Positions 625 to 6,674 of a stretch of 44,099 nucleotides of DNA are shown piece after piece (positions within the stretch are counted from its first letter, which is position 1; every line of letters begins with the position of its first letter). The notes under the pieces are model-generated. The model did no database searches, was not told the DNA's origin, and saw nothing but the letters and a program-made list of their open reading frames with translations. The position numbers and the translations under genes are program-made. Source of the stretch: Gemmatimonadota bacterium (GTDB lineage: Bacteria > JAAXHH01); contig VXTP01000018.1 in the NCBI GenBank assembly GCA_009837395.1, positions 1 to 44,099 of the forward strand. The letters are read 5' to 3'.

Positions 625-1221
625 TTACTGGGCAGGCTGCGTGGTGGCTTCTTCCTCTCCGCCCATGGACGCATCCGAGTCGCCGTCTTCCGCGCCCTCG
701 TCGTCCATGCCTCCTTCACCTTCGTCCATTTCGCCTTCGCCCATCTCGCCTTCACCCATTTCGCCTTCACCCATTTCGCCTTCGTCCATTTCCGGCGCAT
801 CGGCGGCCATAACGTGGAGCATGTCGCCTACCGCGGCGCCGATATCGGTCGCGGCATTGCCGCCGTTAATGGCGATCTGGAGCGTGCCGGACTCCTCGTC
901 GAACCGGGCGAGCCAGGCGCCTTCGGCCACGTCGCCATAGTCGGTGACCATGGGCATGACGAGGGTCTGTTCGTTATGGGTCACCGAAATCCAGCCGTCC
1001 GCGGCGAATCCGGCTTCCATCAACTGATCGCTCGTGGCGTTCGTGTTGATGTTGGCGAATTCCTCGCTGATACTGCTGACCTCGACGTTGATCATGGCAA
1101 CGTCCATGGCCATCTCTTCGGTTGCCGCCTCTTCCATGGCCGCATCTTCGGCCCCGCCGCAGCCGTAGAGGCCGAACGCGCCGACCATACAGGCCAACAG
1201 GTATGATGTAAACCGCTTCAT
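625..1221 (-). CDS. Lipoprotein with SAM-hydrolase C-terminal-like domain and acidic repeat tail
   Basis: A 198-residue exported protein. I chose the ATG at 1221 because AAAGGA lies eight bases upstream; an in-frame ATG at 1227 is too close to that site. The N-terminus is a type II signal peptide with lipobox LYGC (Cys21), so the protein is probably lipidated. After an Ala/Glu/Met-rich linker, residues about 43-135 contain EFANINTNAT, a Y-x-D-V-x-x-G segment, and LQIAINGGNAATDIGAAVGD. This order resembles the beta-barrel C-terminal half of S-adenosylmethionine hydroxide adenosyltransferase/SAM hydrolases (old DUF62), without the catalytic N-terminal half. The C-terminus is an acidic GEGEM repeat tail from a 15-base tandem repeat. 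Function unknown; the domain match is by eye and moderate. Confidence 0.8.
   Translation of the reverse strand: MKRFTSYLLACMVGAFGLYGCGGAEDAAMEEAATEEMAMDVAMINVEVSSISEEFANINTNATSDQLMEAGFAADGWISVTHNEQTLVMPMVTDYGDVAEGAWLARFDEESGTLQIAINGGNAATDIGAAVGDMLHVMAADAPEMDEGEMGEGEMGEGEMGEGEMDEGEGGMDDEGAEDGDSDASMGGEEEATTQPAQ
715..789. repeat. 15-base tandem repeat in lipoprotein gene
   Basis: About five units of a 15-base repeat, in phase at the cat trinucleotides starting at 727, 742, 757, 772 and 787. On the minus strand each unit encodes Met-Gly/Asp-Glu-Gly-Glu, which makes the acidic tail of the lipoprotein. The period is a multiple of three, so gain or loss of units would change tail length without a frameshift. 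Confidence 0.9.
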
Positions 1222-1339
1222 GATCATGTTCCTTTCACGTGGAAATCCCATCGTGGTGGAATGAAAAAAGTGACGCTATGTAATGTAGAGGAAAATACGT
1301 ACTGCGCTGACTTCTTGATCGTCGGCCATACGTACTACA

Positions 1340-2222: not shown

Positions 2223-3455
2223 CTACACGCCGATGCGGTCGCGATGGCGCCGTTCGATATGGTGTGACACCGAGCGGCACACCCGGGAGATGCCTTCGCC
2301 GATGAGCGACTGGTCGAGGAAGCTGTAACACAGGCGGAACTGGTTCGCGCCGCGGCCGTCGGTATAGAACGAGGGGCCGGCCACGTAGGCCACCTTCTCA
2401 TGCTCGACGGCCCAGGCCAGCATCGCCGTGGAGTCGATCCCTTCGGGTGCGGTCAACCACACATAGAATCCGCCGTCCGGTCGGGTCCAGGTGAGGCCGG
2501 GCGGGGCGTGCTCCGCCAGCGCATCCAGCGTGACGTCACGCTTGGCTTGATAGAGCGCCCTGGACAGTACGATCTGGGAGTCCATCAGGCCCTGGCGGCC
2601 GTATTCGTAGACGATGCGCTGTCCGAGGGTGCTGGAACACTGGTCGCTGCCCAGCTTCGCCTGGCACAACTGGGCGATGACGGGAGGCGGCGCCGCGATC
2701 CAGCCGAGGCGGATGCCCGGCCCGAAGATCTTGGAGAAAGTGCTGACGAACAGCACGCCGTCGGGATTCAGCGCCTTGAGCGAAGGCGGAGGCGCGTTGT
2801 CGAAGTAAAGTTCCGCGTAGGCGTGGTCCTCCAGGATGGGGATGTTGTACCGGTCGGCGAGTTCGACCAGTTTGCGCCGCCGTTCCAGGGGCATGGTCAC
2901 GCCGCCCGGATTCTGAAACGTCGGCATGGTGTAAATCAGCTTGGCTCGCTTGCCCTGCCGTTCCAGCTCACTCAACTGCGCTTCCAGGAGGTCCACGCGC
3001 ATGCCTTCGTCATCGATGTCCACCGCGACGAAATCCACGTCGTAGCACCGGAAGACCGAGAATGCGGTCAGGTAGGTGGGGGCTTCCACGACGATGACGT
3101 CGCCGGGGTTGAGCAGCATCTTGGCGATGAGGTCCATGGCCTCGATGCCGCCCGTGGTGACGATAATGTCGTCCACGGTGGCGGTCACGCCTTCGACGGG
3201 CCCCATGCGGTGGGCGATCCACTCCCTCAGGGCCGTGTAACCCGCCGTGGGACTGTATTGCAGCGACATGCTGCCGTGATTTTCGAAGACCTGGACGGCG
3301 ACTTCCTTCATCGCCTCCATGGGAAACGTGGCGTCGTCCGGCAGGCCGCCGGCAAAGGAAAGCACGTCCGGCCGTTCCGCCAGCTTGAGCAGCTCGATGA
3401 CCGCCGTATCGCCAATGAGTTCCATGCGGTCCGCGTATACATCCCGCCAGTCCAT
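2223..3455 (-). CDS. PLP-dependent aminotransferase, class I/II (LysN/MocR-like fold)
   Basis: A 410-residue fold-type I aminotransferase. LSFAGGLPDDATFP near residue 33 is the typical start of 2-aminoadipate/aromatic aminotransferases and MocR C-terminal domains. Further blocks are QYSPTAGYTALREWIA, TTGGIEAMDLIAK, EAPTYL, and the PLP lysine in STFSKIFGPGIRLGW. The ATG at 3455 has AGGGGG six bases upstream; a TTG one codon earlier is less likely. There is no N-terminal HTH, so this is an enzyme and not a MocR regulator. It is first in a two-gene unit with the PhyH-type dioxygenase, suggesting an amino-acid-derived substrate is processed by both, which is an inference. The exact amino donor and acceptor are unknown. 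Confidence 0.92.
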   Translation of the reverse strand: MDWRDVYADRMELIGDTAVIELLKLAERPDVLSFAGGLPDDATFPMEAMKEVAVQVFENHGSMSLQYSPTAGYTALREWIAHRMGPVEGVTATVDDIIVTTGGIEAMDLIAKMLLNPGDVIVVEAPTYLTAFSVFRCYDVDFVAVDIDDEGMRVDLLEAQLSELERQGKRAKLIYTMPTFQNPGGVTMPLERRRKLVELADRYNIPILEDHAYAELYFDNAPPPSLKALNPDGVLFVSTFSKIFGPGIRLGWIAAPPPVIAQLCQAKLGSDQCSSTLGQRIVYEYGRQGLMDSQIVLSRALYQAKRDVTLDALAEHAPPGLTWTRPDGGFYVWLTAPEGIDSTAMLAWAVEHEKVAYVAGPSFYTDGRGANQFRLCYSFLDQSLIGEGISRVCRSVSHHIERRHRDRIGV

Positions 3456-3634
3456 CAACTACCCCCTGCGTAAGTCCTCTGTTTACAAAAAAACCGTGAT
3501 CGAACTGAACCGCGCGGGTGCCCGTCGGGTGCCGTCGCGTGACCTTCGTGGTCGCCGCGCGTGTCCTTCGTGGCCGCCGCGCGCGTGCATTGGATTGTAC
3601 GGTCCGGGCGGTGGAAAGACAAGGCCAATTTTCC

Positions 3635-3685
3635 TTGACACGGGCGGGGAGACATGTCTTATCATGGCCTTCAAATGGTGGTCAA
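3635..3685. promoter_or_regulatory. Possible overlapping divergent promoters
   Basis: In the 350-base gap between the divergent aminotransferase and PC4-like genes, the plus strand has TTGACA (3635-3640) and TATCAT (3660-3665) with a long 19-base spacer. The minus strand has TTGACC (3685-3680) and a weak TAAGAC (3661-3656). They overlap, so the two directions could compete. From 3690 to 3770 the motif CATCGTGT recurs several times, which could be binding sites. All of this is weak pattern evidence. Confidence 0.3.
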
Positions 3686-3807
3686 TGTTGATCATCGTGT
3701 CATGATATTCATCGTGTACACGTTGTCATGGTGTGCATCGTGTAAACGGTGTATTCAGTGTACATCGCGTTCCAGCACACCCATCTACCGCTTCGCGAGG
3801 TATATAC

Positions 3808-4065
3808 ATGGCCGAGGACAGCCAGGTCGTAGCCAGTTTCCAGAAGAACAGCCAGGAAGAGTTCCGCTTCACCATCACGTCCTTCCGCGGAAACGAATAC
3901 GCCGATATCCGGATCTATTACGAGAACGACGGCGATTTCCTGCCCAGCAGGAAGGGCATCACCATCTCCCCGGAGGCATGGAAGTCCTTCCGGTCCTGTC
4001 TCGACGAGCTGGAGTCGGAACTCAAGGAGCGCAACCTGCTCAAGGACGAAGAAGGTGAAGGCTGA
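3808..4065 (+). CDS. PC4/YdbC-like ssDNA-binding transcriptional coactivator
   Basis: An 85-residue protein. It shows the PC4 (p15) core: FRFTITSFRGNEYADIRIYY followed by RKGITISPEAWKSF and a C-terminal acidic helix. This is the fold of eukaryotic PC4/Sub1 and bacterial YdbC-type proteins, which dimerise and bind single-stranded DNA or RNA. I chose the ATG at 3808 because GAGG lies eight bases upstream; an upstream in-frame ATG at 3733 would add a poorly conserved, T/G-repeat-encoded extension. Its stop codon (4063-4065) touches the stop codon of the convergent glycosylase-fusion gene with no bases between. Role in this organism is unknown; a nucleoid or repair-related function is possible. 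Confidence 0.88.
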   Translation: MAEDSQVVASFQKNSQEEFRFTITSFRGNEYADIRIYYENDGDFLPSRKGITISPEAWKSFRSCLDELESELKERNLLKDEEGEG

Positions 4066-5292
4066 CTAGCCCACCCGGTGCCCTTCCGCGGCGAGAAAGC
4101 ACTCCGGGTCGTGACGGATGGGTAGATATCCCGTGCTCATGAGGAATTCGCCGACGATCTCGGGTCCCATGAAACGGAAGGTCTTCCTGAACACCGCCAC
4201 CCATTCGTCCAGGGAAGTGCAGGACTGGCCGTTCAACCAGGCTGCGAAGGAACCGTGTTCCGTCCGGATCTGCTGGATGACCCGCGCGTTGTGGATGGCC
4301 GCGTCGATCTTGAGCCGGTTCCGGATGATGCCGGCGTCCCCGAGCAGGCGCGCCCGGTCCTCTTCTCCATAGGCCGCCACGCGGTCCACGTCGAACCCCT
4401 CGAAGGCCTCCCTCAGCGCCTTGCGCTTCTTCAGTACCGTCAGCCAGCTCAGCCCCGCCTGGTTGATCTCCAGCACGAGCCGCTCGAAGAAATCGTCGTC
4501 CCGGGACAGGGGAAAGCCGTACTCATCGTCGTGGTAGGCGGCCAGTATCGGGTCTTTGAGCGTCCAGGCGCAACGGCGCCGTTCGTCGGCTTCTTCGACG
4601 AATTCGCCCGTCCTGACCGGGTGGACGTCAGCCCCCGTGATCCACGTCTCGGGCAGGTGGCGCGTACAGTTCATCAGGGCCAGGTGCGTGGATGTGGGCG
4701 TGATGATGAACCGGGTGACGGAGGTGTTCGCGAACCAGTCGATCCTATCGTGTCCCATGCCCGGGGTGGCCAGGATCACCCCCACGAGGAACCGCATGAA
4801 CGCCCCGTGGGACACCAGGACGACGCATTCCCCGGTGTGGCCGAACTCGTCGTGGATCCTCCGGGCGACCCGCTCCGCCCGGACCTGGGCTGCATCGTAG
4901 TCCTCCCAGGGTCGGCACTTCCACCAGCCTCCCTCGTCGAACTCATCGCCGAGGCGGACGCCCGGGAAACCACGCTCGATTTCAGAACGCTTCATGCCGG
5001 GCCTGCCTTCGTATTCCGCGTTGCCTGCGCCGGCCTGGACGCCGCCCTGTTCGTGAATGTCGATCCACGCCTCCGCGGACTGGCCCGTCTCGCGGAGGTA
5101 GGGGGCGATGGTTTCCAGGGTGCGGAGGAACGGACTGACGAAAATGCGCGTGGGACGAAGGTGGCGGATGCGGTTAACGAGGTATTCGGCCTGCCGGTAT
5201 CCGAGCGCGGACAGGGAGGGATCGTCGGTTCGCTCTTCCTGCGGCCGGGCATTGTTTTCGGATTCCGCGTGGCGGATGATGTATAGTTCCAT
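4066..5292 (-). CDS. Histidine phosphatase fused to DNA-3-methyladenine glycosylase I
   Basis: One continuous 408-residue frame with two domains. Residues 1-205 are a phosphoglycerate-mutase-like histidine phosphatase: YIIRHAESENNA puts the catalytic His at 8, and VVLVSHGAFMRF carries the second His at 162. Residues about 239-400 are TagI: RRCAWTLKDP with Cys241, YHDDEYG with His254, LEINQAGLSWLTVLKKR, and a C-terminal HDPEC giving His394 and Cys398. These match the Cys-His-His-Cys zinc site of E. coli TAG, and the active-site Glu and Trp of the QAGLSW block are present. TagI removes 3-methyladenine from DNA; the phosphatase substrate is unknown. Both domains look intact. AGGAG lies rather far (about 17 bases) upstream of the start. 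Confidence 0.93.
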   Translation of the reverse strand: MELYIIRHAESENNARPQEERTDDPSLSALGYRQAEYLVNRIRHLRPTRIFVSPFLRTLETIAPYLRETGQSAEAWIDIHEQGGVQAGAGNAEYEGRPGMKRSEIERGFPGVRLGDEFDEGGWWKCRPWEDYDAAQVRAERVARRIHDEFGHTGECVVLVSHGAFMRFLVGVILATPGMGHDRIDWFANTSVTRFIITPTSTHLALMNCTRHLPETWITGADVHPVRTGEFVEEADERRRCAWTLKDPILAAYHDDEYGFPLSRDDDFFERLVLEINQAGLSWLTVLKKRKALREAFEGFDVDRVAAYGEEDRARLLGDAGIIRNRLKIDAAIHNARVIQQIRTEHGSFAAWLNGQSCTSLDEWVAVFRKTFRFMGPEIVGEFLMSTGYLPIRHDPECFLAAEGHRVG

Positions 5293-5488
5293 GAGTTCGG
5301 GCGTTCTTTCTCCTGGTAAGCGGCCGGTGGTTGAGGATTACGGGTCGGCAGCGGACGCGCCGGATGACGGGCCGGCGACTGTGCCCCCGTCCGCGCTTCG
5401 CAGTGGCGCGATTCCGCCGCAACGGACGTGCCGTCAATTTGAACCGACATAAGGTATACTACCGGCCCTGCCGTCGAAAGGAAAAGGT

Positions 5489-5564: not shown

Positions 5565-6674
5565 ATGGAAGGATCAGGCCGGCCCTATGTCGAATACCGC
5601 AAAGTCAGCAAAAGCTATGACGGAAAGACCACGGTAGTAGACGGCGTCGACCTGGACATCCGCAAGGGAGAGTTTCTCACCCTCCTGGGTCCTTCCGGTT
5701 CGGGCAAGACCACCTGCCTCATGATGCTGGCCGGCTTCGAGACGCCCACCTCGGGCGAGATCCTCGTGGGCGGCCGCTCCATCCACAACCTGCCGCCCCG
5801 CAGGCGCGGCATCGGCATGGTGTTCCAGAACTACGCCCTCTTCCCCCACATGACGGTGGGGGCCAATCTCGCATTTCCTCTCGAGGTCCGCGGCATGGAC
5901 CGCGGCCAGTGCCGCGAACGGGTGGAACGGGCCCTGCAGCTGGTGCAGCTGGAAGGATTCGAGCACCGGCGTCCCGGCCAGCTTTCCGGCGGGCAGCAAC
6001 AGCGCGTGGCCATCGCCCGTGCCCTGGTATTCGATCCGGAACTGGTCCTCATGGACGAACCCCTCGGCGCGCTGGACCGCCGGCTTCGTGAGGAGATGCA
6101 ATACGAGATCCGCCGCATCCACAAGACATTGGGCGTCACGGTCGTGTACGTCACCCACGACCAGCAGGAGGCCATGGTCATGTCGGACCGCATCGCCGTG
6201 CTGCGTGACGGCAGGGTCGAACAGGTGGCCGATCCCGAGACGCTCTACGAGGAACCGCAGCGTTCCTTCGTGGCCCGGTTTATCGGGGAGAACAACCGGC
6301 TGCACGGCAAGGTGATGGGCATAGAGGGCGATATCTGCGAAGTGTTCGTGGGCGGCGAGATCATCGAGGCGATCCGCATCGCGCCTTGCCAGGTGGGCGA
6401 CACCGTAACGCTTTCCATCCGCCCCGAGCGCGTGGCCGTCTCGCCGGAATCCGGGCTCTACACCAACGAACTGGTGGCCCTGATCGAGGACATCACGTTC
6501 CTGGGCGACTACCTGCGCCTGCGCGTCACGGTGTGCCGCACATCCGATTTCATCATCAAGATACCCAACACCGTCGGTCACGGCGCTTTGCTCGCGGGCG
6601 ACAAGATTCTCATCGGCTGGACGCCGACGGACTGCCGCGTGCTCGATCCCGAACCGGAAGGAAAAGGAGAATGA
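5565..6674 (+). CDS. ABC importer ATP-binding protein, PotA-like
   Basis: A 369-residue ATPase of the spermidine/putrescine/iron importer class. Walker A GPSGSGKTT is at 42-50, the Q-loop at FQNYALFP, the signature LSGGQ at 140-144, Walker B LVLMDE at 160-165, and the H-loop in YVTHDQQEAM. The C-terminal 130 residues form a TOBE-type regulatory domain. The stop overlaps the start of the binding-protein gene (ATGA at 6671-6674). It energises the membrane complex made by the next genes. PotA-type is the best class assignment; the transported compound is not proven. Confidence 0.95.
   Translation: MEGSGRPYVEYRKVSKSYDGKTTVVDGVDLDIRKGEFLTLLGPSGSGKTTCLMMLAGFETPTSGEILVGGRSIHNLPPRRRGIGMVFQNYALFPHMTVGANLAFPLEVRGMDRGQCRERVERALQLVQLEGFEHRRPGQLSGGQQQRVAIARALVFDPELVLMDEPLGALDRRLREEMQYEIRRIHKTLGVTVVYVTHDQQEAMVMSDRIAVLRDGRVEQVADPETLYEEPQRSFVARFIGENNRLHGKVMGIEGDICEVFVGGEIIEAIRIAPCQVGDTVTLSIRPERVAVSPESGLYTNELVALIEDITFLGDYLRLRVTVCRTSDFIIKIPNTVGHGALLAGDKILIGWTPTDCRVLDPEPEGKGE

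Follow-up and report, generated by a model that had tools for sequence, protein, structure and literature searches.

A histidine phosphatase and a DNA glycosylase in one frame

The window, a 44,099-nucleotide stretch of contig VXTP01000018.1, carries on its minus strand a single frame of 408 residues plus stop (4066–5292; ATG at 5292, stop at 4068–4066). Pfam resolves two enzymes within it: residues 3–209 match the histidine phosphatase family PF00300 (E = 2e-26, 93.3 bits against a cut-off of 21.7, profile positions 1–193 of 194), and residues 243–354 match PF03352, the family of 3-methyladenine DNA glycosylase I (TagI; E = 3.1e-40, 138.4 bits against a cut-off of 25), the latter profile being aligned over positions 1–112 of 177 only. 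A sequence-only reading of this DNA had proposed such an uninterrupted frame joining a phosphatase to TagI, and both the translation and the order of the Pfam matches bear it out.

The N-terminal phosphatase part (residues 1 to about 229; 4606–5292, minus strand) is delimited by the PF00300 match, by invariant residues and by a stand-alone 231-residue phosphatase from a sister genus (genome G013), whose end approximately coincides with its own. The junction (residues about 230–238; 4579–4605, minus strand) was placed by DNA comparison with G013, a scan for in-frame starts and sequence variability. The remainder (residues 239–408; 4069–4578, minus strand) is a TagI-type glycosylase of a short subtype, assigned from PF03352, an alignment of 85 TagI-type domains and matches to TagI structures in the PDB. 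Its zinc ligands are Cys241, His254, His394 and Cys398, with Tyr253, Glu275 and Trp283 in the pocket. The fusion is present in single copy in its genome, which holds one PF03352 gene in total and one other PF00300 match, SixA-like in appearance when its translation is read.

A PC4-type coactivator protein (3733–4065, plus strand; PF02229) runs convergently to the fused gene, with a PLP aminotransferase beyond it (2223–3458, minus strand; PF00155); by synteny, both are kept in the examined genus loci and in G013. On the other side lies a divergent, polyamine-type ABC transporter ATPase (5565–6674, plus strand; TIGR01187 above cut-off, synteny), which was not found at the phosphatase locus of G013 or of a third genus, G012. 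Elsewhere in the window, 625–1251 (minus strand) encodes a small protein that matches PF20257 (SAM hydroxide adenosyltransferase C-terminal domain) and has an acidic, repetitive tail of Glu, Gly and Met. At 5310–5314, upstream of the fusion, all six genus sequences inspected retain an AGGAG or GGGAG motif; it stands 16–17 bases before the ATG, exceeding the usual spacing of a ribosome-binding site.

The phosphatase half

Branch-1 histidine phosphatases use a catalytic Arg-His motif, a second Arg, an acidic donor and a second His. The present half resembles them in carrying Arg7-His8, Arg57, Glu81 and His162, in scoring above the PF00300 cut-off and in its fold matches, the last obtained with a model of moderate quality. 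These five residues are also invariant in 30 aligned sequences (8 of them fusions), a conservation that is biased at the N-terminal motif: the other relatives were found with short exact patterns including MELYIIRH and therefore lean towards the same N-terminus. A fold search with the better of two models (mean pLDDT 66.4) returned tau55, Sts-2 and histidine-type phosphoserine phosphatases, after TagI structures. Branch-1 enzymes usually stand alone, unlike this fused half, for which no equivalog model reaches its cut-off. A named substrate class was sought with NCBIfam; eight phosphatase-type models (PspA, CobC, SixA, GpmB and others) match, all below their cut-offs. The phosphatase half most likely hydrolyses some small phosphomonoester.

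The neighbours of its relatives were read at 35 loci, G012 and G013 included. An APC-type permease is present at five and tsaD at seven (one of these cut by a contig end), both being minimum counts as flank lengths differ. The tsaD loci (L069, L071, L076, L079, L082, L083 and L088) belong to Chloroflexi-type genomes, with tsaD mostly directly behind the phosphatase, and this sharing could be a hint at the phosphatase substrate or at shared expression. No repair gene was found among ten neighbours scanned with Pfam. At three Gemmatimonadota-type loci (L059, L065 and L085), the next gene encodes a TIM-barrel protein of PF01261, a family that is named AP_endonuc_2 but covers isomerases too. We rejected it as an AP endonuclease: NCBIfam gives weak ribulose-phosphate-epimerase matches and no Nfo match.

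The TagI half belongs to a short subtype

The best PDB matches to this half, by sequence and by fold, are TagI; among the fold-search results, the TagI entries show 30–40% identity. We take its pocket residues Tyr253, Glu275 and Trp283 to be equivalent to Tyr16, Glu38 and Trp46 of the E. coli enzyme. All three align with identical residues of 1lmz. A zinc snap motif has been described for TagI, in which the snap holds the N-terminal tail (PMC9266487); here, two Cys and two His are likewise contributed by the N- and C-terminal tails. Compared with E. coli Tag (PDB 1lmz/1p7m; PF03352), the half thus shares the zinc-snap ligands, the pocket residues and the first two thirds of the domain, but it is fused to a phosphatase, lacks about 19 residues ahead of the second zinc pair and falls below the NCBIfam cut-off.

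Set against the classical type in the 85-domain alignment, the shortening falls after the helical core and ahead of the second zinc pair; it recurs among relatives from Pseudomonadota, Balneolota, Gemmatimonadota and others. The NCBIfam TagI model TIGR00624 gives 129.5 bits where its cut-off is 232.5, the match ending at model position 108 of 179; we therefore file this half as a PF03352 member of the short subtype and not as a classical TagI. The earlier description of TagI as complete is right for the zinc ligands and the pocket residues checked, but has to be qualified for the domain as a whole, given the partial Pfam match, the absent residues and the TIGR00624 score.

In a tree of 72 of the 85 domain rows (two damaged and eleven distant rows left out; bootstrap not settled), a branch with 100/99 support separates short from classical types. 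Within the short types, the fused genes join G013 (88/82); G012 and G014, from the same order, are classical. The tree suggests that the family may have acquired its short TagI from outside. The fused TagI is no less similar to that of Billgrantia (74% identity over 146 residues) than to that of G013 (71% over 162 residues). At another locus (L142, genome G125), two TagI-type frames stand in tandem (3011–3583 and 3587–4087, minus strand), one belonging to the short type, the other divergent and lacking the usual N-terminal zinc ligands.

The predicted activity of the half is most likely removal of 3-methyladenine from DNA; because TIGR00624 stays below its cut-off, this excision is likely but not assured. 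The genome also encodes a 326-residue HhH-GPD protein whose best NCBIfam match is the AlkA model, below cut-off. Another alkylation glycosylase may thus be present, and the cell need not depend on the fusion for repair of alkylation damage.

The fusion is real and restricted to one genus

Among 191 genomes searched, the full 408-residue fusion is present in all 12 of the window's genus, its own included (86–100% identity), and in no others. Order-wide and phylum-wide searches (16 genomes each, an identical set) and a search of 28 relatives of G013 agree with this restriction. A separate sequence collection yielded seven named records with the full fusion (L031–L037), all metagenome-assembled genomes, five labelled Candidatus Latescibacterota and two Gemmatimonadetes; the window would belong with them by its genus and by contigs in common. 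The fusion is real but local: it belongs to one Latescibacterota-type genus that is known from metagenomes.

All 12 genes are stop-free and of exactly 408 codons. Invariant in every one are Arg7, His8, Arg57, Glu81, His162, Cys241, Tyr253, His254, Glu275, Trp283, His394 and Cys398; among them are the residues that the sequence-only reading had named (His8, His162, Cys241, His254, His394 and Cys398), each at the position it gave. As ratios of means over the 66 pairs of the 12 genes, dN/dS is 0.10 for residues 1–218, 0.13 for residues 239–400 and 0.27 for the 20 residues between (219–238), the junction region and the most variable stretch of the protein. By this comparison, both halves are under purifying selection. 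In the nine of 12 genus genomes whose loci were examined for synteny, the fusion has the same flanking genes, as far as contigs or fetched stretches extend.

An artefact (an assembly join, a sequencing error removing a stop or an unrelated overlapping frame) might be suspected from the draft state of the genome (47 contigs) and from the occurrence of two separate genes in G013, but it is extremely improbable given the recurrence of the unbroken frame across the genus, on contigs up to 2.9 Mb, and the shared flanking genes. The same 408-residue frame in 12 of 12 genomes leads us to reject an assembly join, one of two doubts attached to the original reading; the other, that related genomes might carry no homologous fusion, is answered by the same 12 genomes.

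The two genes stand apart in a sister genus

G013 and G012 represent genera different from the window's but within its family. At the syntenic locus of G013, phosphatase (231 residues) and TagI (168 residues) are separate neighbouring genes, in the order M16-type peptidase, APC-type permease, phosphatase, TagI; beyond TagI, on the other strand, are a P-type-ATPase-like frame and PC4, with the aminotransferase further on (peptidase, permease and ATPase labels read from translations). The boundary consists of the phosphatase TGA, a 17-base gap containing GAGGAG, which by its sequence is a putative ribosome-binding-site-like element, and the TagI ATG. The junction in the window occupies the place of this stop, gap, GAGGAG and start codon. 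The corresponding locus of G012 keeps the peptidase–permease–phosphatase order and has no TagI; a short-chain-dehydrogenase-like frame (label read from translation) comes next, and a classical TagI is encoded on another contig.

A history consistent with these states can be proposed. The histidine phosphatase gene was probably already at the locus in the ancestor of the family; a short-type TagI gene would then have come to stand directly behind it on the same strand; and loss of the intervening stop, gap and start in the genus of the window would have left one two-enzyme chain. Fusion of an adjacent pair in the window's genus is the simplest history on the sequences at hand, fission in G013 being less parsimonious. 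Phosphatase identities among the three genera (57.8–60.6%) are too even to fix the branching order, so that fission in G013 is possible; we infer the direction of fusion from the unfused sister-genus state, a polarity that rests on three genera. The gene is a lineage-restricted fusion of two known enzymes, and comparison with the sister genus accounts for its likely origin.

The pairing is rare beyond the genus

In a survey of 384 genomes, a sample of prokaryotes from which rare cases may escape, PF03352 occurs in 116 genomes and the fusion in only 12, all of the window's genus. A local profile found no phosphatase in the nine PF03352 frames of at least 299 residues outside the genus (read or scanned in G014, G072, G121, G152, G260, G277, G317, G326 and G363). 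The other frames are too short for both domains, apart from three that were left unjudged and outside the fusion count: matches cut by contig ends in G300 and G058, and one read across TGA codons in G258.

We also scanned 131 loci with flanks of about 1 to 6 kb. Both domain types occur at 25, TagI alone at 63 and phosphatase alone at 43, which gives 88 loci with a TagI-type domain. All but one of the both-domain loci (24/25, repeats of the same places counted) come from the window's genus or G013. Outside these, 63 of 64 TagI loci are without phosphatase by the local profile, which may miss remote members though it did detect the domain within a tRNA synthetase gene neighbouring TagI at the remaining locus (L055). 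A further scan of 25 TagI loci (10 already counted, 15 added) found a phosphatase at none. Plasmid and phage collections gave 119 and 16 matching records, respectively, none covering 80% of the query at one place; among the matches listed (15 plasmid, 10 phage), all fall in the TagI part. No earlier description of the fusion was found by title or abstract start in the open-licence PubMed Central literature.

The L055 gene (7108–10626, plus strand; Candidatus Kaiserbacteria) is a combination in its own right, a 1,173-residue isoleucyl-tRNA synthetase frame with PF00300 inserted in its catalytic domain (residues 524–689, profile positions 2–166 of 194, E = 2e-30). The 0.6 Mb genome G215 (L150) is the one genome of 384 to match this synthetase-insert query at E = 1e-20 or better, over all 236 query residues, insert and both flanks (36% identity). 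A literature search found no paper on a tRNA synthetase combined with a histidine phosphatase.

Do the two halves work together?

The native end of one protein is joined approximately to the native start of the other, an anatomy that suggests two working enzymes in tandem. Predicted models of the fused protein (mean pLDDT 66.4 and 58) are too low in confidence to read domain packing. Their alignments left out ten phosphatase rows, L060 for a reported stop codon and nine as a precaution (L069, L076, L078, L080, L084, L086, L088, L091 and L092), as well as broken or partial-match loci (such as L058, L067, L075 and L093–L109). An alignment that mixed the two sorts of single-domain relative was kept out of the folding; in it, phosphatase tails fell under the TagI half.

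We think it probable that two independent enzymes were joined here by loss of a gene boundary. The halves would then most likely work independently, with the fusion mainly ensuring co-expression or having simply become fixed; from sequence comparison, we infer both the enzymatic activities and their independence. Independence is ranked first, an accessory role second and a repair or cleansing link third, in view of this anatomy, of the AlkA-like protein in the genome and of two mycobacterial parallels, RNase HI-CobC and MutT1. MSMEG_4305, an RNase HI-CobC, offers a precedent for domains acting independently in vivo: as reported, removing its phosphatase domain hardly affected growth, and the authors describe the domains as functionally uncoupled in vivo and fixation as most probably due to drift (PMC7466739). 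The 63 of 88 TagI-domain loci without a phosphatase, and the 15 added loci, point the same way. However, none of the 12 species has broken the fusion, so that selection might be acting on the physical link itself, and in the homologue Rv2228c the CobC domain is reported to have affected RNase activity in vitro (PMC7466739).

It is rather unlikely that the phosphatase half is chiefly an accessory domain that stabilises or targets the glycosylase or binds a partner. The RHG domain of MutT1 is described as aiding the other domain without catalysis of its own, its Nudix half not being purifiable alone (PMC11784022), and the TagI N-terminal tail, held by the zinc snap (PMC9266487), directly follows the junction here. 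Against this, the phosphatase motif residues are invariant across the genus and dN/dS in this half is at least as low as in the glycosylase half, which fits a working enzyme; the junction, moreover, is the least conserved region.

Functional coupling, with the phosphatase dephosphorylating alkylated nucleotides or a repair by-product while TagI clears the same lesion from DNA, seems distinctly doubtful. It would fit with active-site residues of both enzymes being intact in one chain in all 12 species, with the adjoining genes of G013 and with MutT1, the mycobacterial Nudix–histidine phosphatase protein that acts on 8-oxo-(d)GTP (PMC11784022). Yet phosphatase relatives share loci with a permease or tsaD, none of ten scanned neighbours is a repair gene, and the PF01261 neighbour gives weak epimerase-type matches and no Nfo match. 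The AlkA-like protein of the genome, though below its curated cut-off, also weighs against coupling, as does the report that the RHG histidine of MutT1 was dispensable for the activities tested (PMC11784022). A stricter version, a dedicated two-enzyme alkylation-damage protein whose glycosylase clears methylated adenine and whose attached phosphatase destroys methylated nucleotides or a phosphorylated repair by-product, is very unlikely; if true, damage would be neither left in nor put back into DNA. The sequence-only reading had suggested, as an inference, a link between base-excision repair and removal of a phosphorylated metabolite, perhaps cleansing of damaged nucleotides. The fusion stands as real, genus-wide and kept by selection, but neither the loci of phosphatase relatives nor those with a TagI-type domain gave positive evidence for the link.

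There is at best a slim chance that the product is later split, by proteolysis or by translation starting internally, leaving the cell with two separate enzymes. In-frame GTG or TTG codons lie between codons 210 and 262 in 11 of the 12 genes, but no start position in this range is common to the whole set, and the gene in the window lacks any in-frame start codon within it.

Comparison with known fused enzymes

Histidine phosphatases are known in fusion with enzymes that act on nucleic acids or in damage avoidance, and the present gene brings a DNA glycosylase into that group. It also makes fused, separate-neighbour and phosphatase-alone states visible at one syntenic locus in one bacterial family. 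Should the halves prove to be coupled, glycosylase repair and nucleotide clearance would be connected through it; otherwise the case cautions against inferring function from a domain fusion on its own.

The closest studied parallel is RNase HI-CobC of mycobacteria (MSMEG_4305/Rv2228c), also a nucleic-acid enzyme joined to a histidine-type phosphatase in one lineage; both of its domains are reported to be under purifying selection, and its linker to vary (PMC7466739). It differs in having an RNase H in place of a DNA glycosylase and in carrying its phosphatase at the C terminus. Mycobacterial MutT1 likewise joins a damage-avoidance enzyme to a histidine phosphatase domain (PMC11784022), but that enzyme is a Nudix hydrolase acting on free nucleotides, and its phosphatase, too, is C-terminal.
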